33,106 nucleotides of DNA from Microcaldota archaeon (GTDB lineage: Archaea > Micrarchaeota > Micrarchaeia > Anstonellales > Bilamarchaeaceae), in contig JAFGPA010000034.1 of NCBI GenBank assembly GCA_016926175.1, positions 1-33,106 on the forward strand, read 5' to 3'. Position numbers and translations under genes: made by a program. Under the pieces are notes generated by a model. It did not search any database. It was not told the DNA's origin and was given only the letters and a program-made list of their open reading frames with translations. This document shows positions 1-26,569 of the stretch, one piece after another (positions within the stretch are counted from its first letter, which is position 1; each line of letters begins with the position of its first letter).

Positions 1-1192
1 ATTTTCCTTCAGATGGTTTTTTTGCTTCAGGCATTGGTTTTTTAGTTTCTGAATCTGTTTTTTTGTCATTTTCTGAGAACGAGGTTTTAAGGCGTTCAAC
101 GATACTGTTTTTGGATTTTTTGTTGCTGGACCCTGCATGGGAAAGCTTTTTTTCAATAACATCGTCAAGAGACTTTTCCTGTTTTGGCTCTGAAACTTCC
201 TGCTCTTTTTGTTGTTTTGAGTTTTTTGCCATTTTGGCTTTTTGGCATTTTGATGCATCTGGTTTTTGTGATGCTTCGCTTTCAGCAACCTGGTCTGTTT
301 TTATTTCAATATAATCCCTTGCCCTGGCATCAAACTTCCGGATATAAAGGTATGGAACCTTCACCGCAGATCCATCCATTGGTATGATCATAGGGCCAAG
401 GTCTGTAGGTAGAATAAAGCCGGTATTTGCAATTGCAGGCGTGAATATTTGCTGAAGTTTGATCTCTGGCGGAAGAGGTATTACTATTTCGTTTGTTTTT
501 TGTTCGTTTGCACATTTTAGTTCGCCAGTATCTCTTTCCATGATAAGAACACTGGTGTCTGCGAGCATCAGTTTTTCACTTCTGAAGCCGCCGTGCGATT
601 TCTCAAATTCTTCTCTGCCCAGCTTCATCATTTTTCTTGCTGCCGGACTGATTTTTGTGCCGCCCTTATACATGCGGTCAAGATCAGAGATTTTTTCCGG
701 ATCGGCATTGTATGGCACGGATCTGAGGGAAAGGTCAGTTATGTGTTTTCCAACCCTAAGCTCTTCGGCATTGGGAAAAAGAAGATTCTGGGACTTGTCA
801 ACTGCCATTGGAATTCCCTGTGATCCGACAAAAAAATGGATTCCGCCGTCAGAATTTCTGGAAGCTGCAATGGCGGCGCTCCTTACAAATCCGGAATTTT
901 CAAAATTTGAAAAATCAGCCTCTGCAACTCTTTTTGGATCCCCTTTGACCAGGAGCTGATCGCCGATTTTAACTGCAACTATTTCATGACTGTTGAATTC
1001 CGGGTAATATACCTTTGCAACCCCTCCCCGGTTTTCCTTTGCTATTTTCAATATAAGCTCATCGGCAGTTGCCCCTTCATTGATGTGGGTGGAAAACTTC
1101 CTGCCATTCAGTGTTACAGTGGCCTTGACAAGAAGCGGCTTGTAGAATTTTGGCTGCACAATAGGCTGCAGTTGTAGTCGTAATCCTCCCAT
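1..1192 (-). CDS. Unknown protein, 3' end outside the window
   Basis: I do not recognise this gene. The reading frame stays open from the ATG at 1192 to the left edge (397 codons). The first ~310 residues look like a folded, mixed alpha/beta cytoplasmic protein. No signal peptide or membrane segment is seen. From about residue 315 it becomes a Lys/Glu/Ser/Gln-rich low-complexity tail, probably a flexible linker or extension. It follows thrS on the same strand after a 104-base gap that contains its own TATA-like box (1212-1225), centred about 27 nt before the ATG, so it is probably transcribed independently as a leaderless mRNA. Antisense open frames across this stretch are shorter and do not look like proteins. 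The existence of the gene is well supported; its function is unknown. Confidence 0.75.
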   Translation of the reverse strand, partial: MGGLRLQLQPIVQPKFYKPLLVKATVTLNGRKFSTHINEGATADELILKIAKENRGGVAKVYYPEFNSHEIVAVKIGDQLLVKGDPKRVAEADFSNFENSGFVRSAAIAASRNSDGGIHFFVGSQGIPMAVDKSQNLLFPNAEELRVGKHITDLSLRSVPYNADPEKISDLDRMYKGGTKISPAARKMMKLGREEFEKSHGGFRSEKLMLADTSVLIMERDTGELKCANEQKTNEIVIPLPPEIKLQQIFTPAIANTGFILPTDLGPMIIPMDGSAVKVPYLYIRKFDARARDYIEIKTDQVAESEASQKPDASKCQKAKMAKNSKQQKEQEVSEPKQEKSLDDVIEKKLSHAGSSNKKSKNSIVERLKTSFSENDKKTDSETKKPMPEAKKPSEGK

Positions 1193-1211
1193 AGGGCAAC
1201 GATTACTGTGT

Positions 1212-1225
1212 TTAATTTTATAAAG
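1212..1225 (-). promoter_or_regulatory. TATA-like promoter element of the left-edge gene
   Basis: On the minus strand the sequence reads GCTTTATAAAATTA, centred about 27 nt upstream of the ATG at 1192. This is the spacing expected for an archaeal TATA box driving a leaderless transcript. It lies in the gap between thrS and the next gene. Confidence 0.5.
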
Positions 1226-1296
1226 CTAGATGATAATTTCTGCGGAAATAAATATTGCATTTTTTTATTTATAAAGAAAAGGCCGGACAAAATTTT

Positions 1297-3171
1297 TCAT
1301 CTAAGTACCGGCAATTTACTCATCCGCATATTCAGGGAAAGCTTTTCGAATGGTTTTCCTTCATTTTCTTTTTCTATGATTTCAATGAGCTCGCTTTCAG
1401 TCATTTGTTTTTTTCCGCCGCTGCTACGAATCGTAACTGTGAGGCTGCCGGATTCTATTTCCTTATCGCCAATAACAGCTATATAGGGTATCCATTCTTT
1501 CTCAGCATCACGTATTTTCTTGCCCAGCGTCTCATCCCGGTCATCGCAGTCAACACGAAATCTGTGCTCAGCCAGCTTTTCTGCAAGTTTTAAGGCATGC
1601 TCTTTCTGTTTTTCAGAAACAGGAATAATCCTGAGTTGATTTGGAGAAAGCCATACCGGGAACATGCCTTTTTCACCTTTTTTCATTTTGAGTGCTTCTT
1701 TCTCCAGCAAAGCATAGATTACGCGTTCCAAGGAACCACTAAGCGAAGCATGCAGTATAAGAGGTCTTTTCTTTTCTCCGTTCTTGTCTATAAAGCTGAT
1801 ATCAAAAGTATCAGAGTTTTCAACATCTATCTGCACAGTAGATAACGCGCTTGCTTTTCCCATGACATCAACAAAATTAAATTCGAATTTCGTAATGAAA
1901 TAGGCATAGCGCTCTTTAAATATCTCGACAAGAATTGGCTTGCCGAATTTTTTTACCATGTTGACATACCATGGCTTGTTTTCATTGAAAAAGTCTTCCT
2001 GAACCCTGAAGCCAACCTCATAATCAAGATCCATCATTCGCATCCATTCCAGGCTGATGCCATATTGGTTTTCAAATTCAGCCTTGGCGCTTTCAGTATC
2101 TACGGTTAATGTATGCATATCCGGCATGGTAAATGCTCTTAATCTCTTGAGCCCTGCAAGTTCTCCGCTTTGTTCTCTGCGGAATGAGTATTTTGTTAGC
2201 TCGAAAATCTTGAGAGGCATAATTTTGTATGGAATTGTAGCATCATGCAACATGATGAATGAGCCGAAACATGCAGCGAATCTCAAAAACAGGGTTTTGT
2301 CTTCACTTAGAACAACATATTGCCTTGCAGGGAACCGGTTGAGGTATTTTTTAAGTGCCGGGTGTTCATAATCATACATTATGGGGGTTTCCACTTCCAT
2401 GGCGCCATAATTAACGCACCATTCCGTAATTGCCTTTTCCAGCAACGATTTCATTAGCCGTCCCTTTGGATAGAACCTGAAATTACCAGAATCGCTTCCG
2501 GGCTCATAATCAATAAGCTGATGATCTTTCATAAGCTGGATGTGCGGGGGTTCTTTATCATAGGCTCTTGTTTTTTTCGTTTCATATGTCATGAATTTTT
2601 TCAGATCAGGATATTTGCCATAATCAAATTCCCCGGTCTCATGAAGCTTTCCTTCCAGATCAAGGATGTAGAACTGGCTTTTGAGAGTATTTTCTGCTCT
2701 TAGGCTTGTTGAAACCGGTTCAACCTGGCTCGGCTTGACATCTACGCTTCCAGGACCATGAAACTCCCTTGACAGCTCTGACAGCGGATGGCCCTTGCAT
2801 TTCATTGTATATCCCTTATACCATCCAAACGGAGAATGTGACGTGGTATATCCTTTGCCATTCAGAAGTTCTTCTGCTTTGAAAATTACCTCTTTTGCTA
2901 TTTTTGGGGCAGATGGCTTTGAAGTAAGGTGAACCAGTGGATAAAGAAGGACATTCTTTATTTTGACCTGTTCTGCAACTTTGATTACTTCTTCAGCCAG
3001 TCTTGCGGAGGATGAAACGGCATCCTCATCGCCCTGTTCAACAGATGTGAATACGACCAACACTTCATCAAATCGTTTTTTTTCCTTTGATTTGATTTCT
3101 TCGGCATCCTTGACTGCTTTTTTCATGGGCTCTACTTCTATATAGTCAGAATGAATTGCAAGAATTCTCAT
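1297..3171 (-). CDS. thrS: Threonyl-tRNA synthetase, archaeal type
   Basis: Charges tRNA-Thr with threonine in the cytoplasm. The 624-residue length fits the archaeal form. Residues 1-140 (starting MRILAIHSDY) match the archaeal editing domain, which resembles D-aminoacyl-tRNA deacylase and removes mischarged serine; it replaces the bacterial TGS/N2 editing module. The class II catalytic core follows: motif 2 around YSFRREQSGELAGLKRLRAF and motif 3 around HASLSGSLERVIYALLE. The C-terminal ~100 residues form the anticodon-binding (HGTP) domain. The start lies only 5 bases after the stop of the LAGLIDADG-like gene, so the two are almost certainly co-transcribed. Nothing is missing. Confidence 0.95.
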   Translation of the reverse strand: MRILAIHSDYIEVEPMKKAVKDAEEIKSKEKKRFDEVLVVFTSVEQGDEDAVSSSARLAEEVIKVAEQVKIKNVLLYPLVHLTSKPSAPKIAKEVIFKAEELLNGKGYTTSHSPFGWYKGYTMKCKGHPLSELSREFHGPGSVDVKPSQVEPVSTSLRAENTLKSQFYILDLEGKLHETGEFDYGKYPDLKKFMTYETKKTRAYDKEPPHIQLMKDHQLIDYEPGSDSGNFRFYPKGRLMKSLLEKAITEWCVNYGAMEVETPIMYDYEHPALKKYLNRFPARQYVVLSEDKTLFLRFAACFGSFIMLHDATIPYKIMPLKIFELTKYSFRREQSGELAGLKRLRAFTMPDMHTLTVDTESAKAEFENQYGISLEWMRMMDLDYEVGFRVQEDFFNENKPWYVNMVKKFGKPILVEIFKERYAYFITKFEFNFVDVMGKASALSTVQIDVENSDTFDISFIDKNGEKKRPLILHASLSGSLERVIYALLEKEALKMKKGEKGMFPVWLSPNQLRIIPVSEKQKEHALKLAEKLAEHRFRVDCDDRDETLGKKIRDAEKEWIPYIAVIGDKEIESGSLTVTIRSSGGKKQMTESELIEIIEKENEGKPFEKLSLNMRMSKLPVLR

Positions 3172-3176
3172 TTGTC

Positions 3177-3674
3177 TCAGCTCTTGATGTAATCAAACAC
3201 TTTATGATCCTTATATATCTTCACATAGTTTTTTATGAATGTAAGAAATATTGCAGGCCTCTCTATAATCAGCTTCGGACCGCGTTTTCTTGCGCCAAAG
3301 CCGAGCCTGAGCAGCATTATTTCATCTTCAGGAGTGAATTTCTTCAGGAAAACTATCCCTTTTTCATCAATCTGCCCTGTTGCATCGAACATGCCTGCAA
3401 GATAACTGGCAGCATATTCATTGAGGTACCTGAAGCGTTCAAGTTGTTCCTTTTCTATCTGCTGAAAAAATTTCCGGTATGCAGAATGGTAAAAATAGAC
3501 CTTATTATCATCCGAAAGCATTCTGTCTGAAGAAGAAAGCTGTTTGTCCAGAATTTCCCTGGTGAAAACAGAAACGACCGGCTCATCGCCCCTAACGCCA
3601 ACGCCCTCAGACGTGCGGTTCTTTCGCCAAAGTCCGATGATGTAGGAAAGTTCCGGAGTAAGTTTTATTTTCAT
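3177..3674 (-). CDS. Stand-alone LAGLIDADG-fold protein, probably nuclease-dead
   Basis: A 165-residue protein with two spaced motifs resembling the helices of LAGLIDADG homing endonucleases: LSYIIGLWRKNR (residues 9-20) and YLAGMFDATGQID (91-103). In active enzymes the eighth position of each motif is the metal-binding Asp/Glu. Here those positions are Asn19 and Thr99, so cleavage activity is unlikely. It is not inserted in another gene and sits 5 bases upstream of thrS and 21 bases downstream of another small gene, in an apparently stable operon. This suggests a domesticated DNA- or RNA-binding protein, as happened in bacterial WhiA. The family assignment rests on motif reading only and the function is unknown. 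Confidence 0.65.
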   Translation of the reverse strand: MKIKLTPELSYIIGLWRKNRTSEGVGVRGDEPVVSVFTREILDKQLSSSDRMLSDDNKVYFYHSAYRKFFQQIEKEQLERFRYLNEYAASYLAGMFDATGQIDEKGIVFLKKFTPEDEIMLLRLGFGARKRGPKLIIERPAIFLTFIKNYVKIYKDHKVFDYIKS

Positions 3675-3695
3675 CGAAACCCCTCAATAAAGAGT

Positions 3696-4154
3696 TTATG
3701 CTTTCAGTTTTTTCTTGTCGTTTTGAAACGATACTGATTTTTTCTTTGGAATGGGGATCTCCACTCTCCTTGTGCCCTCAACGAATTCTTTTATTTCTCC
3801 TGCAAGCAATTCATCCAGCTGTACTGTGAACCAGCGCTGTGCCTTGTCTGAAACATATGCCCGTTTGAATATAAGCGCTATTTCTTCCTGCTCTTTGACT
3901 GTAAATGGATTCTGGTCTTCTTCAATCCTTTTTTCTGCTTTTTTAAGGAGTTCTCCAAATTTCTGAATGTCGCTTTCTGGTGCGCCGCCTGCGCTGAGAG
4001 CACTGAGAATGCCTTTTGCAAGGACTGCGTTTCTTTTGCCGGTGCGCTGAAGGAGATTGTCGAGTTTTTTCAGATCTACAGCTGCAAGGCCCCCTTTTTT
4101 TGCAGCTTCTAACACTCTTCGTGCAAATTGGAAAAACCCTCCAATGAATTTCAT
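3696..4154 (-). CDS. Unknown helical protein, first gene of the thrS operon
   Basis: I do not recognise this 152-residue protein. It is rich in Lys, Glu, Ala and Leu, predicted mostly alpha-helical, and ends in a basic tail (KKKLKA). No signal peptide, membrane span or cysteine motif is visible. It is the first of three tightly packed minus-strand genes ending with thrS. A TATA-like box (minus strand TTTATTAATTTTA, centred near 4180) lies about 26 nt upstream of the ATG, fitting a leaderless start. The divergent purM begins 79 bases away with its own box. Confidence 0.7.
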   Translation of the reverse strand: MKFIGGFFQFARRVLEAAKKGGLAAVDLKKLDNLLQRTGKRNAVLAKGILSALSAGGAPESDIQKFGELLKKAEKRIEEDQNPFTVKEQEEIALIFKRAYVSDKAQRWFTVQLDELLAGEIKEFVEGTRRVEIPIPKKKSVSFQNDKKKLKA

Positions 4155-4232
4155 AGAGAAGAAACGCGCATAAAATTAATAAACTGTTTGAAAAGGCAAG
4201 CAATAAAAAAGCAAAAGCCCATTTCAATACTG

Positions 4233-5204
4233 ATGAAATACCAGGTTAATGTGGGAGAGGTCAGAAAAATACAGGATACTATATGGAATCAGATCCGGTC
4301 CACTTTTGAATACAGAAAAGGATATGGAGAAGCACTGCCGGTTTTCGGCCACTATGGAGGGATATTCAGATGCGGAAACGACAAACTTGTCATTCATACA
4401 GATGGCGTTGGAACAAAATTGCTTGTGGCAGAACAGCTTGGAAAATATGATACAGTAGGCATTGATGCGATTGCCATGTCAGTTAATGACATACTTTGTG
4501 TTGGCGCACAGCCTTTGGTATGTGTGGATTATATTGCACTTGCAAAAGAAGACAACGAGATGATTTCAGAGCTTATGAAGGGGCTCGTGAAGGGCGCAAA
4601 AGAATCAAGCATGGCAATCATAGGCGGAGAAACTGCCATTGTTCCTGATCTTCTGAAGAAAGGGGCATTTGACCTTACAGTAACCGCAGTAGGAAAAATA
4701 CAGAAACTTGTACTTGGAAATGAAATTGTAAATGGGGATGTTATCGTAGGGCTGGAAAGTTCCGGAATACATTCCAACGGCTACACCCTTGCAAGGAAAC
4801 TCCTGAATATACGAAAATGGGGAGAGGAAATGCTTAAACCAACAAGAATTTATGCAAATCCGGTTCTTGAAATGATAGATGCCTGCGATGTCCATGGAAT
4901 TGCGCATATAACAGGGGGCGCATTTTCCAAATTAACAAGGCTCAATAAGGAAGTCGGATATTCGCTTGATGACCTTCCTGAGCCTCCGCCCATATTCCTG
5001 GAAATGGGAAAGAAGGTGAATGAATTTGACATGTACAGGACATTCAATATGGGTGTCGGAATGGCAGTCATACTTCCTGAAGATCGTGCTGATACTATCA
5101 TCAACATTGCCAACAAACACGAAGTTGAGGCAAATGTTATTGGGAAAATTACGGACAAGAAAGGCGTCTGGATAAAAGGCAGGAATATTGCCTACGAGGG
5201 ATAA
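4233..5204 (+). CDS. purM: Phosphoribosylformylglycinamidine cyclo-ligase (AIR synthetase)
   Basis: Catalyses ATP-dependent ring closure of FGAM to 5-aminoimidazole ribonucleotide, step five of de novo purine synthesis. Family signatures are clear: IHTDGVGTK near the N-terminus, IGIDAIAMSVNDILCVGAQP, the GGETAIVPDL loop, GLESSGIHSNGYTLAR and GIAHITGGAF. The 323-residue length is slightly short but normal. I start at MKYQVN rather than at the in-frame ATG at 4128, because the upstream 35 residues overlap the divergent gene and an A/T-rich TATA-like element (4200-4211) lies about 27 nt before 4233. The lipoprotein gene starts one base after its stop, so the two probably share a transcript. No other purine gene is present here. 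Confidence 0.93.
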   Translation: MKYQVNVGEVRKIQDTIWNQIRSTFEYRKGYGEALPVFGHYGGIFRCGNDKLVIHTDGVGTKLLVAEQLGKYDTVGIDAIAMSVNDILCVGAQPLVCVDYIALAKEDNEMISELMKGLVKGAKESSMAIIGGETAIVPDLLKKGAFDLTVTAVGKIQKLVLGNEIVNGDVIVGLESSGIHSNGYTLARKLLNIRKWGEEMLKPTRIYANPVLEMIDACDVHGIAHITGGAFSKLTRLNKEVGYSLDDLPEPPPIFLEMGKKVNEFDMYRTFNMGVGMAVILPEDRADTIINIANKHEVEANVIGKITDKKGVWIKGRNIAYEG

Positions 5205-5205
5205 A

Positions 5206-5745
5206 ATGAAATTTTTAGCTTGTATATTATTGATAGGTTTGGTTTTGGCCGGGTGTACTTCAGAAGCGCCTGCTGAAAATGATGAGGGAGTAGTTCCTGA
5301 AGAAGAAATTACCGATGAACCTGTAGTGGCTGAAGAACCTGAAGAGATCCTGAAAGAGGAGGTCCAGGAACCTGAACTGCCCCAAGCTGAAGAATCGCCT
5401 GCAACCCAGAATGAGTGTTCAACTCTTGCTCCGGACTGTTATTCCTGTGTAGCAAAGAAAGGATGCGGCTGGTGCAAGACAAGCAATTCATGCTTCAGCG
5501 GAACTTCTGCAGGACCAGCAGTAAGTTCCTGCGAACCGGCAGACTGGGCATATGATGAAATTGCATGCCAGGGCCCAAAGGGCGGCAAAACATGTGAGGC
5601 ACAGTACAATTGCGCTGACTGCCTTACAGGTGCAGGATGCAAATGGTGCATTCAGGGATCTCTGTGCGCTTCCGCCGATTCAGAAATGGAATGTTTCGGA
5701 GGCTGGCTTACAGAGTCATTCAGATGCAACTACGCATCAAGATGA
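5206..5745 (+). CDS. Lipoprotein with two PSI-like cysteine-rich domains
   Basis: A 179-residue exported protein. Residues 1-17 form a short lipoprotein signal peptide ending in the lipobox LAGC, so the mature protein should be lipid-anchored outside the membrane. A Glu/Pro-rich acidic spacer follows. Then come two cysteine-rich modules, CYSCVAKKGCGWC and CADCLTGAGCKWC with flanking cysteines, matching the plexin-semaphorin-integrin (PSI) pattern C..C......CxWC.....C. PSI domains are small disulfide-bonded modules that position extracellular binding domains; here they are the only folded part. The start is the ATG one base after the purM stop. The gene is convergent with dph6 and overlaps it by 9 bases. 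The ligand is unknown. Confidence 0.85.
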   Translation: MKFLACILLIGLVLAGCTSEAPAENDEGVVPEEEITDEPVVAEEPEEILKEEVQEPELPQAEESPATQNECSTLAPDCYSCVAKKGCGWCKTSNSCFSGTSAGPAVSSCEPADWAYDEIACQGPKGGKTCEAQYNCADCLTGAGCKWCIQGSLCASADSEMECFGGWLTESFRCNYASR

Positions 5746-6375
5746 TTTTTCCTTTATTTCTATTTCTTTTATTTTGGCTATGCCCCTGACCCCGTCAAAT
5801 GATTTGTCCCAGGATTTTATAACGATTCTTTTTTTGAAGAAAGGAGCATATGTCACAAATGTCTCACCCTCTCCTCCTTCAAGAAGCAGGTGGATGCCTG
5901 ACAGTCTGGCATCGACAATCTTCTGAAAAGGCTGTCCGAGAAATTTTTCATCCAGGCCTTCTGCAGACACTGCAGTAACATAGACTTCGAAATCCCGGAT
6001 TTCTTCCAGAATTTCCTTTTCCCTGTGCCAAAGAGGGGCGTAGGCAGGAATTCCGAGTTCTGCAGCGACAGAATCGATTCTTTTTTTCTGGTATTGGCTT
6101 GCAATTGCTCCGGTAACAATGCCTTTTACCTGAAGCTGCCTTAATTTTTCAATCAATTTGCCCCTCCAGTTTTCTTCAGTAGTTTCTACAAATTCCTGCG
6201 GCAGTTCCATTGCCTGTGCCTGGTATTTGGTAAATTCAATATTGGGATGATGAAACATCATGGAATATTCCGGGGGCTTGACAGTAACCAGAATAGGATC
6301 GAATCCTTGCTTCAGAGTCCATGAAGTGGCAAGAACACTGTCTTTGCCTCCTGAAAAAAGAACTGCTACGCGCAT
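5737..6375 (-). CDS. dph6: Diphthine-ammonia ligase (Dph6-like PP-loop ATPase)
   Basis: Last enzyme of diphthamide formation on elongation factor 2: it activates diphthine with ATP and amidates it with ammonium. The protein (212 residues) has the N-terminal PP-loop SGGKDSVLA at residues 9-17, followed by the family pattern GAIASQYQKKRIDSVAAELG and the C-terminal GEGETFVTYAP segment typical of the ATP_bind_4/Dph6 family. The divergent HAD gene starts 34 bases away. The two promoters must therefore interleave: TATA-like sequences for each gene fall near 6383 (plus) and 6401 (minus). It overlaps the PSI lipoprotein gene end to end. Confidence 0.88.
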   Translation of the reverse strand: MRVAVLFSGGKDSVLATSWTLKQGFDPILVTVKPPEYSMMFHHPNIEFTKYQAQAMELPQEFVETTEENWRGKLIEKLRQLQVKGIVTGAIASQYQKKRIDSVAAELGIPAYAPLWHREKEILEEIRDFEVYVTAVSAEGLDEKFLGQPFQKIVDARLSGIHLLLEGGEGETFVTYAPFFKKRIVIKSWDKSFDGVRGIAKIKEIEIKEKSS

Positions 6376-14957: not shown

Positions 14958-17627
14958 ATGCAAAAAACCATGGCGCAGCAGAAAGTCGCTTCAATGGTAG
15001 CCAGTGCACAAAAAAGCGACAGCCTTCATGCAGCATTGCTGGTATTCCTGGGGGCATTGTTCCTTATTTCCAGTTTTCCGTTCTATCCTGTTTATGTAAC
15101 AGTAGCAATTTCAGCCCTTTGCGGGGCCATTGCCTACAGAAAGCCGCCTATTGGCGTTCTGGCAGGAGCCATTATTGCATTTTTTGCAGTGATATACCAG
15201 ACCCCGGTATTTGGCTGGATATACGTCCTGGTTTTGGCATTGATAATGTTCGAAGTATTTGACCACTGGAAAATAATAGCGTTTCTGGAAATACTGATAC
15301 TTGCACCATTTGCATTCAGTACATTGCCTTATGTCGGCTGGGCAACAATAGCAGTAATGGCAATTGGAGCGCTGCATTTTGGATCAAGGAAAAGCGTACT
15401 TATATCAGTGCCGTCAGTTTTCATGATTCTGCTCCTGTCATCCATATGGTTAACGCAAAACAGTGCATACATGCCCCTGAACCTCAGCCTTTACAAGCCA
15501 GGCTTTGAACAGCTGCAGGTAACAAAGGCGCCCGTAGCTGTAATGAGCATTATACCGGAAACAGCGAAAAGCATTGGAACTTTCGTAAGCCCGGCAAACC
15601 TGAATTTCATCTGGCAGTCGTTATCCTGGATTTTTAATAATTCAGTGATTCTGATACTTCAGGATTCAATGATAATACAGCTCATTGGCTGGGCTGCTGC
15701 CCTTTATCTCATTGGCTATCTCCCAAGCAGGATCAAAAAAATGCCGCAGACCTTGGCTTCATTCTCGCTGCTGATTGTCGTGGGAGCTTATTTCCTGAAT
15801 TCAGCACTTTACAAAAGTCCTGTTTATTTTGAATTTATAGGGGCTATAGCATTTGCAATTGCCCTTCTGGCGGCTTTTGAGCATATAGGATGGAATATCA
15901 GCAGGGAATCTGAAATCCAGAGATCGGACAGGATGAAATCTTATGGAAAATTCGGAATGAGCGATATTTCACTTGGAGGGAAGGAAAAATCAATGGATGA
16001 TGTTGGCGGATATGATGATGTCAAACAGGAATTGCGTGATGCGATTATGCTTCCTCTGGAAAAAAAGGAAATTGCATACACATATGGAATAAAACCTCCT
16101 GCAGGAATTTTATTGTTCGGACCTCCGGGTACAGGAAAAACAATGCTTATGAGGGCGCTTGCAAAAGAACTGAAGTATAATTTCATTGAAGTTAAATGCT
16201 CCCAGGTTTTGTCACAATGGTATGGAGAATCAGAAAAAAACATCGCTGAGGTATTTGATAATGCAAGGGGCAATGCGCCAACTGTTTTGTTCTTTGATGA
16301 AATTGAAGCGATTGCAAAGAGAAGGGACAAGGATTCTCTTGATGAAGTCGGGCCAAGAGTTCTTAGTGAAATGCTCCAGCAGATAGACGGGGCAAACAAG
16401 GCAAAGGGAACTGTCATGGTGGTTGGTGCAACCAACCTGCCGAATGAGCTTGATTCTGCATTGCTGAGGCCTGGCAGGCTGGACAAGATAATCTATATGC
16501 ACCTGCCTGACAAAAAAGCAAGAAAGGCAATATTTGAAGTGCATCTGAAAGGACTCCCGTTAAAGGACATTGACATGGACCTGCTCGTGAAAAAAACAGA
16601 ACGGTTTTCGGGTGCTGATGTCAAGAATATTGTTGTTGAGGCAAAAGGGCTTGCAGCAAAGGAGGCAAGCGAAAGCGGAAAGATAATTCCCATTTCAATG
16701 GAGCATATGCTGAGGATACTTGACAATGTCAAGCCCAGCACAGGAATCGCCCAGCTGGAAATGTATGATAAGTTCAGGCTTGACTATGAGAGAAGAGTTG
16801 GTGAAAAGAAGCCAGAAGCCAAGAAGAAAGAGGTAAGATGGGAGGACGTTGCCGGCCTTGACCAGGTTAAAGAGGCATTGCTGGAAGCAATACATTTGCC
16901 TCTGCTGCATGAAAAGGAGATGGAGGAATTTGAAGTCAAGCCAAGCAAGGGAATCCTGCTGTTCGGGCCTCCAGGTACCGGAAAGACACTGATTGTAAAG
17001 GCAGCAGCTTCCGAGCTGAAGGCATCATTCCAGAGCCTGTCGGCTGCAGATGTAATGAAAAAAGGCTATGGCAGTGCAGTAACAGTAATCAAGGAAACAT
17101 TCAACCGCGCAAGGGAGAATACCCCTTCAATAATATTCGTTGATGAAATTGAAACTTTTGCTCCTGCAAGAGGGGTTTCAGCTTCATCTGAAATAATAGG
17201 GCAGTTTTTGACTGAGATGGACGGGATAAAAGGCATGCAGGGCGTTGTTGTGATCGCGGCAACCAACAGACCAAGGCTCATGGATCCCGCAATAATGAGG
17301 CCCGGCAGGTTTGACAAAATATTCTACATACCGCCTCCTGACAAGGAGGGAAGAAAGGCAATATTTGCAATTCACCTGGGCAAATTTGCGCTCAATATCG
17401 ACCTTGATCTGCTTGCTGCAATGACTTCGAATTTCAGCGGGGCGGATATTGCTTCAATATGCCAGTCTGCAAAGATGAAATCCCTGAGAAAGAAGATACT
17501 TGGAAAGGAAAGCCCCATTACCACTGATGTCCTCGAGAAGATAACGATGGAAAGAAAGCCTTCTATCACAAAGCAGCTCATTTCAGAGTATGAGAAATTC
17601 CTTGAAGAGTATGGGGAAAGAAGATGA
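14958..17627 (+). CDS. Membrane-embedded tandem AAA+ ATPase, Cdc48-like
   Basis: An 889-residue protein. Residues ~20-320 hold about eight or nine hydrophobic helices, with an extracytoplasmic-looking stretch near 165-215. There is no Cdc48 N-domain. Two complete AAA modules follow. D1 has Walker A GPPGTGKT at 388-395, pore loop QWYGE, Walker B FFDE ending at 448 and RPGR Arg fingers. D2 has Walker A at 670-677, a divergent pore loop KKGYGSA, Walker B FVDE ending at 730 and RPGRFDK. Known Cdc48/p97 unfoldases thread substrates; fusion to a polytopic domain suggests extraction or handling of membrane proteins. The start is 26 nt from a TATA-like CTATTTAAAG. The 3' end overlaps the convergent methyltransferase gene by 45 bases. 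The membrane topology is a hydropathy reading by eye. Confidence 0.88.
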   Translation: MQKTMAQQKVASMVASAQKSDSLHAALLVFLGALFLISSFPFYPVYVTVAISALCGAIAYRKPPIGVLAGAIIAFFAVIYQTPVFGWIYVLVLALIMFEVFDHWKIIAFLEILILAPFAFSTLPYVGWATIAVMAIGALHFGSRKSVLISVPSVFMILLLSSIWLTQNSAYMPLNLSLYKPGFEQLQVTKAPVAVMSIIPETAKSIGTFVSPANLNFIWQSLSWIFNNSVILILQDSMIIQLIGWAAALYLIGYLPSRIKKMPQTLASFSLLIVVGAYFLNSALYKSPVYFEFIGAIAFAIALLAAFEHIGWNISRESEIQRSDRMKSYGKFGMSDISLGGKEKSMDDVGGYDDVKQELRDAIMLPLEKKEIAYTYGIKPPAGILLFGPPGTGKTMLMRALAKELKYNFIEVKCSQVLSQWYGESEKNIAEVFDNARGNAPTVLFFDEIEAIAKRRDKDSLDEVGPRVLSEMLQQIDGANKAKGTVMVVGATNLPNELDSALLRPGRLDKIIYMHLPDKKARKAIFEVHLKGLPLKDIDMDLLVKKTERFSGADVKNIVVEAKGLAAKEASESGKIIPISMEHMLRILDNVKPSTGIAQLEMYDKFRLDYERRVGEKKPEAKKKEVRWEDVAGLDQVKEALLEAIHLPLLHEKEMEEFEVKPSKGILLFGPPGTGKTLIVKAAASELKASFQSLSAADVMKKGYGSAVTVIKETFNRARENTPSIIFVDEIETFAPARGVSASSEIIGQFLTEMDGIKGMQGVVVIAATNRPRLMDPAIMRPGRFDKIFYIPPPDKEGRKAIFAIHLGKFALNIDLDLLAAMTSNFSGADIASICQSAKMKSLRKKILGKESPITTDVLEKITMERKPSITKQLISEYEKFLEEYGERR

Positions 17628-18193: not shown

Positions 18194-20191
18194 TCAGATA
18201 ATTCCCAACGATTGGGAGATTATCAGGCCTGCAAAGACAAGTGAAACAGTATTAACCACTTTTATCAAAGCATTCAATGCTGGCCCTGCCGTATCCTTCA
18301 ATGGATCGCCAACAGTGTCGCCAACAATTGCAGCCTTGTGGGTCTCTGAACCCTTTCCGCCAAGGTTGCCTTCCTCGATAAACTTCTTTGCATTATCCCA
18401 TGCAGCTCCTGCAGTCGTCATTGTCAGGGCAAGCATAAGGCCTCCCGCAATTACACCTGCAAGCAATCCTGCCAGTGCTGCTGCGCCAAAGGCAAAACCA
18501 ACAATCAGTGGAACTGTCACTGCAATTGTGCCCGGGAGAGCAAGCTCCCGCAGAGCAGTGGCCGTTGATATGTCAACGCACTTGGCATAATCTGCCCTTG
18601 CTTTTCCCTGCATAAGGCCCTTGATTTCGCGGAACTGCCTTCTTACTTCTTCGACAATCTCAAATGCTGCCTTGCCAACCGCAAGCATGAGCAATGCCGA
18701 GAAGATGAATGGGAGAAGGCCTCCGATGAAAAGGCCCACCACTACAGGAGTATCCAAAAGGTTCACGGTTTCAAGATGCGCAGCCTCTGCAAATGCAACG
18801 AATAGTGCAAGTGCACCAAGGGCCGCGCCTCCAATTGCAAATCCTTTTGTTGTCGCCTTTGTAGTATTGCCAACTGCATCAAGTGCATCAGTAACTTTTC
18901 TTACTTTTGCAGGAAGCTTTGACATTTCTGCAATTCCGCCTGCATTGTCCGTAATGGGACCGTATGCATCCACTGCAATGATGATTCCGCTAAGGGAAAG
19001 CATTGCCGCTGCTGCCAGACCAACGCCATAAAGCCCTGCCACCTTGAAAGAGATGACAATTGCGAATATGATGACCAGTACCGGAAGGACTGTTGCTTCC
19101 ATGCCAATCGCAAGACCCTGGATTATGTTTGTTGCTGCGCCTGTCTTGGATGCATTTGCAACCATCTGGACAGGCTTGTTGTCTGTTGCCGTATAGTATT
19201 CTGTTATCATGAAAAGAAGCATTGTCACTACAACACCCATGATAACTGCGACAAACAATGAAGTTGCCGGAATTGGCAGGTCTGCCGTATTGGTTAGGTA
19301 ATAGTACGAACCCGCAAGCATCACTATTGCCGCTGCAAGGATTCCTGTGTAGAAATAGGACATGATCTTCTTTTGTTTACCGATCCCTACGAACATGGAC
19401 CCGAATATGCTTGCAATAACGCCTATTGCCGCAATTGCAAGCGGAATCTGGATCATGACATCTGTCGCTGCAAATGTCAGACCTATGAGCATTGACGCTA
19501 TGACAGTAACAACAAATGATTCAAAGACGTCCGCGGCCATGCCTGCACAGTCTCCGACGTTGTCGCCGACGTTGTCTGCAATTACTGCCGGATTCCTTGG
19601 ATCATCTTCAGGAATCCCTGCTTCGATCTTTCCAACAAGATCTGCCCCGACATCAGCTGCCTTGGTGTAAATGCCACCTCCGACACGGGCAAACAGGGAG
19701 ATCAAAGATGCTCCGAACCCATAGCCTATAAGAGGTACAAGATCGCCAAAGTACATGTACAATCCGGCAACACCAAGAAGCCCGAGGCCTGCAAGTGCCA
19801 TGCCAGTTACTGCACCGCCGTTGAATGCAATGCCAAGGGCCGGCTTAAGGCCTTGCTTGGCTGCTTCTGCAACCCGGACATTTGCACGTACAGACACCTG
19901 CATTCCTATATAACCGGCCAAAGCAGAGGAGAACACACCTACAATGAATGCAAGTGATGTCGGAATATCAACCCCATAGCCGATTAAAATTCCCAATATT
20001 ATCACGATTGGAAGCAGGGTCTTGTACTGCCTCATAAGGAATGCGTTTGCTCCTTCCTGGATTGCCTTTGAAATCTCAATCATTTCAGCTGTACCGGAGG
20101 GAGAACGTATTACCCTGAAGGCAAGAAACAACGCATATACCAGCGTCAGAACACCTGCAACCAAAGCTAATATAACTGCATCTATCATCAT
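18194..20191 (-). CDS. hppA: Membrane-bound pyrophosphatase, K+-independent H+ type
   Basis: Couples hydrolysis of pyrophosphate to ion export across the cytoplasmic membrane. A 665-residue protein with about 16 membrane helices. PPi-binding signatures are intact: GGGIYTKAADVGADLVGK, DNVGDNVGDCAGMAAD, DAYGPITDNAGG and the C-terminal GDTVGDPLKDTAGP. The residues GNTTKATTKG (441-450) carry Lys where K+-dependent enzymes have Ala, which by known subfamily rules predicts a K+-independent proton pump. Two ATGs are adjacent; AGGTGA lies directly before them, and the second ATG (20188) has the better spacing. TATA-like sequence is at 20225-20240. It helps drive biosynthesis by removing PPi and may add to the proton gradient. 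Confidence 0.95.
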   Translation of the reverse strand: MMIDAVILALVAGVLTLVYALFLAFRVIRSPSGTAEMIEISKAIQEGANAFLMRQYKTLLPIVIILGILIGYGVDIPTSLAFIVGVFSSALAGYIGMQVSVRANVRVAEAAKQGLKPALGIAFNGGAVTGMALAGLGLLGVAGLYMYFGDLVPLIGYGFGASLISLFARVGGGIYTKAADVGADLVGKIEAGIPEDDPRNPAVIADNVGDNVGDCAGMAADVFESFVVTVIASMLIGLTFAATDVMIQIPLAIAAIGVIASIFGSMFVGIGKQKKIMSYFYTGILAAAIVMLAGSYYYLTNTADLPIPATSLFVAVIMGVVVTMLLFMITEYYTATDNKPVQMVANASKTGAATNIIQGLAIGMEATVLPVLVIIFAIVISFKVAGLYGVGLAAAAMLSLSGIIIAVDAYGPITDNAGGIAEMSKLPAKVRKVTDALDAVGNTTKATTKGFAIGGAALGALALFVAFAEAAHLETVNLLDTPVVVGLFIGGLLPFIFSALLMLAVGKAAFEIVEEVRRQFREIKGLMQGKARADYAKCVDISTATALRELALPGTIAVTVPLIVGFAFGAAALAGLLAGVIAGGLMLALTMTTAGAAWDNAKKFIEEGNLGGKGSETHKAAIVGDTVGDPLKDTAGPALNALIKVVNTVSLVFAGLIISQSLGII

Positions 20192-23667: not shown

Positions 23668-24833
23668 ACAAAGTGATATTCGTCGTAAATTATTTTTCCG
23701 TTTTTTATTACTGTCTTTGCTTTTCCCCTGAACTTGAATCCTTCGAATGGCGACCATCTGCATTTTGTTTCAAAATCAGCCCCTCTCACTTCCCATTCTT
23801 TTTTTGGATCGATAATTGTAATGTCTGCCAGATAGCCCGGCTTTAAACGGCCCCTGTCTTTCAGATTAAATGCATCTGCAACGTTTTCGGTCATTCTCTG
23901 CATAAGCCATATCTTGTCGCATATGCCACGATTGCAAAGATCAAGCATGGCACCAAGGGATGTTTCAAGACCTGGAAAGCCGGCTGCGCCTGCATCCTTG
24001 TCTTCTATGGTATGGGGAGCATGGTCACTGCCGATACAGTCAACCTTTTCAAGTGCACTGAGAAGCATGATCTGTTTTTGGGGGGATTTCAAAGTCGGCA
24101 AGACATTTCTCATTCTTGCAAGCCTTGGATAGTCTTTTGTAGAAAGAAGGAGATGGTGCGGTGCGGCTTCTGTTGTAACATTGGAATGCTGCTTTGCCAT
24201 GGAAATCTCCTTTTTTGATGAAACATGAGCCAGGTGAAGCCTCCTGCCCCGGGCAATTCTATAAACCTTCTGCTGGAGATCGTATGTTTCTTTTAGATTT
24301 TCTTCTTCATCCTCCTTGTCTGAACATGCATGAAGCACTATCGGACGCTCTTTGGGAAAGCTGTCAAAATGCTTTTTTGCAGTTTCTAGGTCAACAATGA
24401 GGCTTCCTGTGGTTTTTGCAAGATAAAGTTTCAGTGATGGAGGGTTTGCCTTTTTCACTTCGCTGACATTATCTGCCGTTGCACCAAAATGAAGGATAAC
24501 ATCACAGATGGCTTTTTTTGCAAGCTTCTTTTTTTTCTCATAATTTTCTGCAGTGATCGTGGGAACAGAATTGTTCGGCATATCCATTACAGTTGTGAAT
24601 CCTCCTGCAATTGCAGCTCTTGAACCGGTGAGGAAATCTTCTTTGTAACTGTCCCCCGGCTCTCTCAGGTGTACGTGGGGGTCTATTAGTCCCGGAACAA
24701 CAAGCATGCCTTTTGCATCTATAATCTTGCCTGCTGAAAATGCCCCTATCCCCCTGATTTTTCCGCCCTCAATCAGAATATCTTTTTCAAGAAAAGCGCC
24801 GTCAATAAAGGCCTTGCCACCTTTAATGATCAT
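23664..24833 (-). CDS. pyrC: Dihydroorotase
   Basis: Cyclises carbamoyl-aspartate to dihydroorotate in pyrimidine synthesis. A 389-residue class I amidohydrolase with DPHVHLREPG (first two metal His), a lysine in LKLYLAKTTG at the place of the carboxylated bridging Lys, metal His in VLHACSD and HLAHVSS, and catalytic Asp in GSDHAPHT. Small N- and C-terminal composite beta segments complete the fold (MIIKGGKAFIDG and ADITIIDP). Its ATG overlaps the stop of the TPR-AAA gene as ATGA, so translation is coupled to that gene; no other pyr gene is here. Confidence 0.93.
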   Translation of the reverse strand: MIIKGGKAFIDGAFLEKDILIEGGKIRGIGAFSAGKIIDAKGMLVVPGLIDPHVHLREPGDSYKEDFLTGSRAAIAGGFTTVMDMPNNSVPTITAENYEKKKKLAKKAICDVILHFGATADNVSEVKKANPPSLKLYLAKTTGSLIVDLETAKKHFDSFPKERPIVLHACSDKEDEEENLKETYDLQQKVYRIARGRRLHLAHVSSKKEISMAKQHSNVTTEAAPHHLLLSTKDYPRLARMRNVLPTLKSPQKQIMLLSALEKVDCIGSDHAPHTIEDKDAGAAGFPGLETSLGAMLDLCNRGICDKIWLMQRMTENVADAFNLKDRGRLKPGYLADITIIDPKKEWEVRGADFETKCRWSPFEGFKFRGKAKTVIKNGKIIYDEYHFV

Positions 24834-26569
24834 ACGATTCTTCCACCTTCTGTAATGAAAACTATAACACGAAGGATAAAGACTATGACTATCTTGAATA
24901 TCTTGAGGAATATCTTTGTCCAGGGGGTACTCTTGCTGTTGATTGTTCCAAGCAGATCCTTGAATGCTTCCTTTTCACCAGGCCCCATCTTTGAATCAGT
25001 AACTTTCTTGTGTTCCTTGCCGTCAATGACTGTGAGTTCTTCCTGCTTTCCGATCTGCTTCTTTGCCTGCTCATACCAGGGAGGGAGAGAAGATCTTTTT
25101 TTTGCAATGGCCTTTACGAAATCACCAAGAGTAAGTGGCCTCTGGTTCACCTGTTTTTTTGCAAGTTCAACTGCCTGCTCCCTTTCCATATTGTGGGATT
25201 TCATCATCTGGTCTGCTTTTTCCTCAATGCCCTTGAATGCTTCCCTCCAGGGGATGGTTGCCGCATCGTCAACAATGGCCTTATGGTCTGCAGAAGCATA
25301 GCTCATGGTTGCAATGCCAAGAACCCAGAATGGTATGAATCCTCCGAGAGGCCTTTTCCTTGAATGCATTTTAAGTATTGCAACGCGAGATGAATAATCA
25401 GGTTCCGGGATATAGATGGTTTTGCTGAAACGGCCTGATCTCCTGAGGGCAGGATCAACATCCCATGGAGCGTTTGTTGCTGCAATGATAAGAACGTTCT
25501 GGTTGTTTGCCTCAACACCATCCATCTCGTAAAGCATCTGGTTGACAGCCATCTTCATGTACTGCTGGCCCTCACCCTGATCTCTCCTTCCGCCTATAGC
25601 ATCAACTTCATCGAAGAACAGGATGCAGGGGGGATTCTTTCTTGCCAGTTCGAAAACCTTGTGAATGTTCTTTTCTGTGTTACCAACATACATATCGAGA
25701 AGGTCTGAAAGCTTTGCATTTATGAAACCTGCACCACACTCGCCGGCCGCAGCTTTTACGATATATGTTTTGCCGCAGCCCGGAGGGCCGTACATCAGAA
25801 TGCCTCCGCCGCCGAGCTTGCCGTATTTTCTTGCAAGGTCAGGGTTCCTCATTGGATAAACGACTGCTTCCCGGATTTCTTCCTTCATCTTTTTCATGCC
25901 GGCAACATCTTCGAAGGTCATGTTTGGCTTTGAAAGCATTTTGATGTCTGCCGTTCCGCCTTCGCCGCCGCCTTTGCCTTCCTGGTCTTTTTTTGCCCTC
26001 GCACCCTCAAGATGGGTTTTGGCTTCTGTAAGGTCAGGATTGAGCTCCAGTGCTTTTTCATAATCTCCTACTGCACTGGAAATAGAACCTGCATATTCGT
26101 GTGCAAGGCCACGAAGATGGTATGCCTCTGCAAAATCGGGCTTCAGTTTTACGACTTTGGAGAAATCTTCAACTGCTTTTTCATATTCTTCCATTGAAGC
26201 ATAGGAAAGGCCCCGATTGTAAAATGCCTTGAGATAATTCGGATTTAGGGTAATTGCCTTGTCATAATCCTTGACTGCAGACTGGAAATCCTGCTTCCGG
26301 TAGAATGCATCGCCCCTGTTATTGTAGATGATAGGATTCTGGGGGTCAAGCTCCATTGATTTTGTGTAATCTGCAATTGACTTGTCGAAATTTTTCAGCT
26401 GGTAATATGACAATGCCCTGTTGAAGTAGGCTTCTGAAAATACCGGATTGAGAAGGATAGCCATATTGTAATTCTCTATGGCCCGGTCATAGTCGCCCTT
26501 CTCGTAGTAATCATTGCCCATCTGGTAGTATGTTTTTGCATCTGTAGGATTGGGTTTTCTCTCTGCCAT
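24830..26569 (-). CDS. TPR-AAA+ ATPase with C-terminal membrane helix
   Basis: A 579-residue protein. Five TPR repeats fill residues ~10-180 (each with the AxxxxG/AxxY...A...Y..A..L.P pattern). A Gly-rich linker follows at ~197-206. One AAA module comes next: EDVAGMKKMK, Walker A GPPGCGKT at 261-268, pore loop MYVG at 293-296, Walker B FFDE ending at 321, sensor AATNAPW and Arg fingers RRSGRF. After a helical region the last 30 residues contain a hydrophobic helix (IFLKIFKIVIVFILRVIVF). This looks like a membrane-tethered VPS4/Cdc48-related remodeler that recruits clients by its TPRs. The ATG is 27 nt from a TATA-like ATTAAAAATAT. It shares an operon with pyrC. Confidence 0.87.
   Translation of the reverse strand: MAERKPNPTDAKTYYQMGNDYYEKGDYDRAIENYNMAILLNPVFSEAYFNRALSYYQLKNFDKSIADYTKSMELDPQNPIIYNNRGDAFYRKQDFQSAVKDYDKAITLNPNYLKAFYNRGLSYASMEEYEKAVEDFSKVVKLKPDFAEAYHLRGLAHEYAGSISSAVGDYEKALELNPDLTEAKTHLEGARAKKDQEGKGGGEGGTADIKMLSKPNMTFEDVAGMKKMKEEIREAVVYPMRNPDLARKYGKLGGGGILMYGPPGCGKTYIVKAAAGECGAGFINAKLSDLLDMYVGNTEKNIHKVFELARKNPPCILFFDEVDAIGGRRDQGEGQQYMKMAVNQMLYEMDGVEANNQNVLIIAATNAPWDVDPALRRSGRFSKTIYIPEPDYSSRVAILKMHSRKRPLGGFIPFWVLGIATMSYASADHKAIVDDAATIPWREAFKGIEEKADQMMKSHNMEREQAVELAKKQVNQRPLTLGDFVKAIAKKRSSLPPWYEQAKKQIGKQEELTVIDGKEHKKVTDSKMGPGEKEAFKDLLGTINSKSTPWTKIFLKIFKIVIVFILRVIVFITEGGRIV

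Follow-up and report, generated by a model that had tools for sequence, protein, structure and literature searches.

What would an archaeal cell do with two tandem AAA modules, of the kind found in Cdc48, that are built into its membrane? The question is raised by a gene, here called memAAA, in the genome of a Microcaldota archaeon (1.05 Mb in 39 contigs, 93% complete). The window, meaning the whole stretch of DNA that was analyzed, comprises 33,106 nucleotides, and the features of the gene within it are listed in Table 1. A named family with the same architecture, which the initial annotation had set beforehand as refuting evidence, was not found in Pfam, NCBIfam, or the PDB, and a search of the literature on membrane AAA proteins in archaea or Micrarchaeota retrieved no paper describing memAAA.

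Table 1. Features of the memAAA gene, in window coordinates
Feature	Position	Strand	Basis or remark
memAAA gene, 889 aa, ATG start: polytopic membrane domain, AAA D1, and AAA D2	14958..17627	+	ORF, Pfam
N-terminal membrane domain, residues 1-315	14958..15902	+	Hydropathy of 45 members, AF2
First helix bundle, AF2 helices 21-38, 45-61, 63-81, 83-118, 126-141, 143-164	15018..15449	+	
Segment 165-237, probably outside; two less hydrophobic helices 195-209, 218-234	15450..15668	+	
Last three membrane helices 238-257, 263-285, 292-309	15669..15884	+	AF2, charges
Charged cytosolic helix (317-327) and short linker, membrane domain to D1	15906..15986	+	
AAA module D1 with lid	15990..16733	+	Pfam AAA at residues 384-515
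D1 Walker A GPPGTGKT	16119..16142	+	Residues 388-395
D1 pore loop 1 SQWYGE	16212..16229	+	Residue 421 aromatic in most members
D1 Walker B VLFFDE	16284..16301	+	Residues 443-448
D1 arginine fingers R504/R507	16467..16478	+	
AAA module D2 with lid	16830..17573	+	Second Pfam AAA stretch
D2 Walker A GPPGTGKT	16965..16988	+	Residues 670-677
D2 pore loop 1 MKKGYGS	17055..17075	+	Y704
D2 Walker B IIFVDE	17130..17147	+	Residues 725-730
D2 arginine fingers R781/R784	17298..17309	+	
Conserved C terminus YGERR	17610..17624	+	Alignment of members

Membrane domain of memAAA

The N-terminal part of memAAA is polytopic, as had been proposed from the window alone. It spans about 310 residues that are hydrophobic in every member, with 5 to 9 hydrophobic 19-mers in each of the 45 members analyzed by hydropathy, and no 19-mer above the threshold was found in the AAA part of any of them. 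The AlphaFold model, for which 48 N-domains served as input, is all helical (pLDDT of 94.8, pTM of 0.90). The count of transmembrane helices is based on helix lists, hydropathy, and charges. Loops at residues 1 to 20, 59 to 65, 139 to 147, 256 to 264, and 309 to 330 present an excess of lysine and arginine (5.3 K/R per member at residues 309 to 330), and those at residues 39 to 44, 80 to 84, 118 to 126, 234 to 238, and 285 to 292 do not. This pattern fits a topology with both termini inside, and the C-terminal flank of the last helix is predicted to be cytosolic because of the positive-inside distribution. The charges suit about ten crossings; the number of membrane helices is given as eight to ten because residues 83 to 118 are modelled as one continuous helix. 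Segment 165 to 237 shows lower hydropathy and no excess of positive charges, which suggests that it is probably located outside the cell. Residues Y80, Q81, W104, D236, and Q241 are invariant or nearly so across the order.

Against Pfam, at most two of the 44 members compared matched any given family, and sequences of the PDB gave chance-level scores only. Foldseek searches with the N-domain model against the PDB and the viral library BFVD retrieved nothing at an E value of ≤0.001 (best PDB E value of 0.7, with TM-scores of about 0.2 or less), and the idea of a Derlin- or rhomboid-like fold thus gained no support. As the libraries were the PDB and BFVD, a structurally unsolved cellular relative could exist.

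AAA modules and their relation to Cdc48

Pfam identifies AAA twice in memAAA, together with AAA_lid_3. In an alignment of 64 members, the Walker A, Walker B, and arginine finger motifs are intact in both modules, which bears out the initial annotation. The catalytic residues of D1 are invariant (64/64), those of D2 are kept in at least 61 of the 64, and a sensor-1 asparagine is present at residues 493 (D1) and 770 (D2). In two members of family f6 (L048 and L049), the D2 Walker B is degraded and appears to have lost its acidic residues (DE to E plus K/R), and D2 is probably inactive in these proteins. Residue 421 in pore loop 1 of D1 is W, Y, or F in 56 of the 64 members, and the tyrosine of D2 pore loop 1 is found in 43.

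Pore loop 1 of D1 is also a point of intein insertion, after the E of W.GE, in at least eight relatives. The inteins of L035 to L041 measure 490 to 538 aa, lie exactly after W.GE, start with serine, and end in HN followed by S; that of L037 contains Intein_splicing and LAGLIDADG_3 domains. In L119 (G097, positions 634 to 6282), the pore-loop intein is joined by a second, immediately ahead of the D1 Walker B (HN followed by CILFFDE), and L195 (G019) carries at the same pore-loop site a 177-aa mini-intein that is too short for the usual endonuclease domain.

The best NCBIfam match of memAAA is CDC48 (TIGR01243), at 511.2 bits and below the cutoff of 802.65. The initial annotation had assumed that the N-domain of Cdc48 was replaced by membrane helices, and this claim gained no support. 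The substrate- and cofactor-binding N-domain is indeed absent, as residues 1 to 330 consist of membrane helices with no Pfam match, but the same genome encodes a separate, ordinary Cdc48 (a 721-aa frame ending in MYR) that is about 41% identical to memAAA over D1 and D2. When D1 and D2 are scanned singly, it is the D2 half of the CDC48 model that each of them matches best. In a PMSF tree of 88 modules, with PAN and Vps4 not in the sample, memAAA D1, memAAA D2, and Cdc48 D1 each form a fully supported group, and the best tree places memAAA D1 as sister to memAAA D2 with weak support (76/98). A simple swap of the Cdc48 N-domain is thus without support from the tree or the module scans, though AU tests did not reject trees in which memAAA D1 was forced to group with Cdc48 D1 (P = 0.10) or memAAA D2 with Cdc48 D2 (P = 0.125).

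The strong matches to classical AAA proteins in this genome are Cdc48, memAAA, and a third protein, encoded in the window at positions 24830 to 26569 (−), which combines a single AAA module with TPR repeats at its N terminus and a hydrophobic stretch, perhaps a tail anchor, at its C terminus. Relatives also encode frames of about 555 to 595 aa with a similar single AAA match.

Distribution and gene neighborhood

A profile of the N-domain matched 247 of 301 Micrarchaeota genomes, including 86 of the 96 of best quality, nearly always as one copy per genome in a frame of approximately 890 to 960 aa, or more with an intein. All 59 relatives examined have a memAAA match, most of them full length at 41 to 70% identity, and a homologue with 56% identity occurs in an uncultured “Candidatus Micrarchaeota” archaeon. 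The protein is not a one-off fusion, and its recurrence is far beyond chance. No genome of families f22 to f28 matched the N-domain profile. In eleven of these genomes, all matches to the full-length query were to its AAA part, most of them in frames of Cdc48 size (704 to 800 aa); two lie in longer frames (934 and 1,392 aa) that probably carry insertions. These families appear to live without memAAA.

The initial annotation had proposed a search for co-occurring genes. Among 43 neighborhoods, an S-layer gene (PF05124; E values of 1e-14 to 3e-17 in the three neighbors tested) lies shortly downstream of memAAA and on its strand in ten loci, which represent seven families (L040, L042, L044, L052, L054, L109, L110, L113, L114, and L115), and no neighbor is conserved more often. 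Nine of these loci have the two genes 220 to 560 nucleotides apart, and in L110 the distance is about 2.3 kb. A second secreted protein, of ~700 aa and no assigned family, is encoded after the S-layer gene in seven of the ten. The S-layer neighbor was not seen beside the window gene, in the family of the window, or in the f20 and f21 loci examined; S-layer-like fragments are present on other contigs of the window genome. No conserved operon was found in the genus of the window beyond scattered neighbors. A gene for an H+-translocating pyrophosphatase (window positions 18197 to 20191, −) lies near memAAA in seven loci, all from the window's family.

Proteolytic setting and proposed function

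FtsH is absent in archaea, where the ATP-dependent proteases are only the 20S proteasome and LonB (PMC4343526). No FtsH M41 peptidase scored over the cutoff in any of the 59 relatives or in the window genome. PAN was not found over the cutoff in any of 117 genomes; memAAA itself reaches 445 bits against the PAN model (cutoff of 500), a score that is the sum of its two modules. Subunits of the 20S proteasome are present in all 59 relatives. The window genome also encodes a LonB-like protein with membrane helices in its interior, which weakens the idea that memAAA stands in for FtsH where there is no other membrane protease: it would not simply be the missing FtsH, because LonB is apparently present as well.

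Most members of the family end in YGER(R/K), and nearly every complete one ends in YGER with no more than one residue after it or in something close to this; 19 further complete members end in YGER or FGER plus one residue. An HbYX end, which is thought to allow the attachment of Cdc48 to 20S (PMC5070193) and is found in about 0.9% of archaeal proteins (PMC11475706), is missing in the window protein and in nearly all members. Three members (L009, L013, and L017) have a charged linker beyond YGER and end in HYR, HYR, and MYR, respectively. Cdc48 ends in MYR in 14 of the 16 relatives fetched, including the hosts of these three. Judged from the residues, MYR is a proper HbYX end and HYR a near-HbYX end, its histidine not being hydrophobic. 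The comparison of the tails was made post hoc on three cases, all of which agree. Since 20S occurs in all 59 relatives and three tails resemble that of Cdc48, memAAA may be coupled to the proteasome, directly or indirectly. The initial description of memAAA as a motor without a protease is therefore sustained in part: the protein contains no protease domain and extraction is the best reading of it, whereas, given the 20S of all 59 relatives and the three H/M-Y-R tails, the words “without a protease” should be read with caution.

We consider that memAAA has about an even chance of being a double-ring AAA unfoldase, anchored in the membrane, that removes membrane or exported proteins and directs them to degradation in the cytosol. 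Six copies would assemble into two stacked rings, as expected from knowledge of the family, with the N-terminal helices in the cell membrane, D1 adjoining it, and D2 distal. Both rings would hydrolyze ATP, and the aromatic pore loops would draw polypeptides out of the membrane and on through the pore to the cytosolic side, a direction suggested by the likely order of membrane domain, D1, D2, and cytosol. Candidate substrates are membrane proteins that are misfolded or in excess and exported proteins that have stalled, the S-layer perhaps among them. They would be handed over to 20S directly where a Cdc48-like tail exists and otherwise via Cdc48 bound to 20S, or alternatively be released to refold; hand-over that is direct in few species and indirect in most is plausible. 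The retained ATPase sites, the aromatic pore loops, the order of membrane part and ring as in FtsH, the positive-inside pattern, the lack of FtsH and PAN, the presence of 20S, the three tails ending in YR, and the S-layer gene downstream in ten loci suggest extraction, and the lack of HbYX in nearly all members, the apparent presence of LonB, the apparent lack of memAAA in families f22 to f28, and the missing S-layer neighbor in the family of the window count against it. A more specific arrangement, in which memAAA would cap 20S at the membrane and thread membrane proteins straight into it, seems unlikely.

A small share of the probability goes to a membrane chaperone similar to NSF or Msp1, which would dissociate or remodel complexes and release its substrates without proteolysis. 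The missing protease domain and the conserved YGER end, which most members have in place of a proteasome-docking tail, agree with such a role, as do the two f6 proteins with a degraded D2 Walker B, a condition seen where one ring is structural; the three YR-ending tails that match the end of Cdc48 indicate instead that some species, at least, couple the protein to the proteasome. It is also rather improbable that the rings drive proteins outward, for example in secretion or assembly of the S-layer. The S-layer gene is the neighbor most often kept, and Bcs1, a single-AAA membrane protein, offers an outward mechanism, but in tandem AAA rings the polypeptide normally enters at the N-terminal face, which in memAAA is the one toward the membrane, and leaves at the C-terminal one. 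Furthermore, the intergenic gap has room for a promoter of the S-layer gene itself, the adjacency could be ancestral gene order, and neither the window's family nor the f20 and f21 loci examined show the link. Least of all do we expect a transporter or channel gated by cytosolic AAA rings: the domain is rich in helices, has a highly confident fold, and keeps the few near-invariant polar and aromatic residues named above, but resembles no transporter in sequence or fold (Pfam, PDB, Foldseek), and classical AAA motors act on polypeptides.

Among known systems, memAAA shares with Cdc48, VAT, and p97 two classical AAA modules with intact sites, which score best against TIGR01243. It differs from them in the membrane domain that takes the place of the N-domain, in modules that form their own clades, in a D2 pore loop without the GES motif, and in ending in YGER rather than MYR. 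As in FtsH, an N-terminal membrane part directly precedes a classical AAA ring, and the unfolding of membrane proteins is a likely shared function; unlike FtsH, memAAA has two AAA modules, no M41 domain, and, where FtsH has two membrane helices, about eight to ten. Msp1/ATAD1 and Bcs1 are likewise membrane-anchored classical AAA proteins without a protease, but each has just one AAA module and crosses the membrane with one helix. PAN is an ATPase partner of 20S but is single-ring and soluble, and LonB, a membrane-bound ATP-dependent machine of archaea, differs from memAAA in carrying its own protease and a membrane segment inside the AAA module. Plant Spaf-like proteins of the Cdc48 family combine Cdc48-type domains with a membrane anchor, which in these core eudicot proteins is a C-terminal transmembrane region and in memAAA is polytopic and N-terminal (PMC5070193). 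What is new is the combination of tandem classical AAA rings with a polytopic domain without known fold relatives, across most of a phylum.

memAAA is a second tandem-AAA machine in most Micrarchaeota and a candidate extractor of membrane proteins for archaea with reduced genomes. It provides a testable case of an unfoldase built into the membrane without a protease of its own. If the membrane-tethered proteasome were true, memAAA would be a functional equivalent of FtsH made from a new membrane fold and tandem AAA rings.
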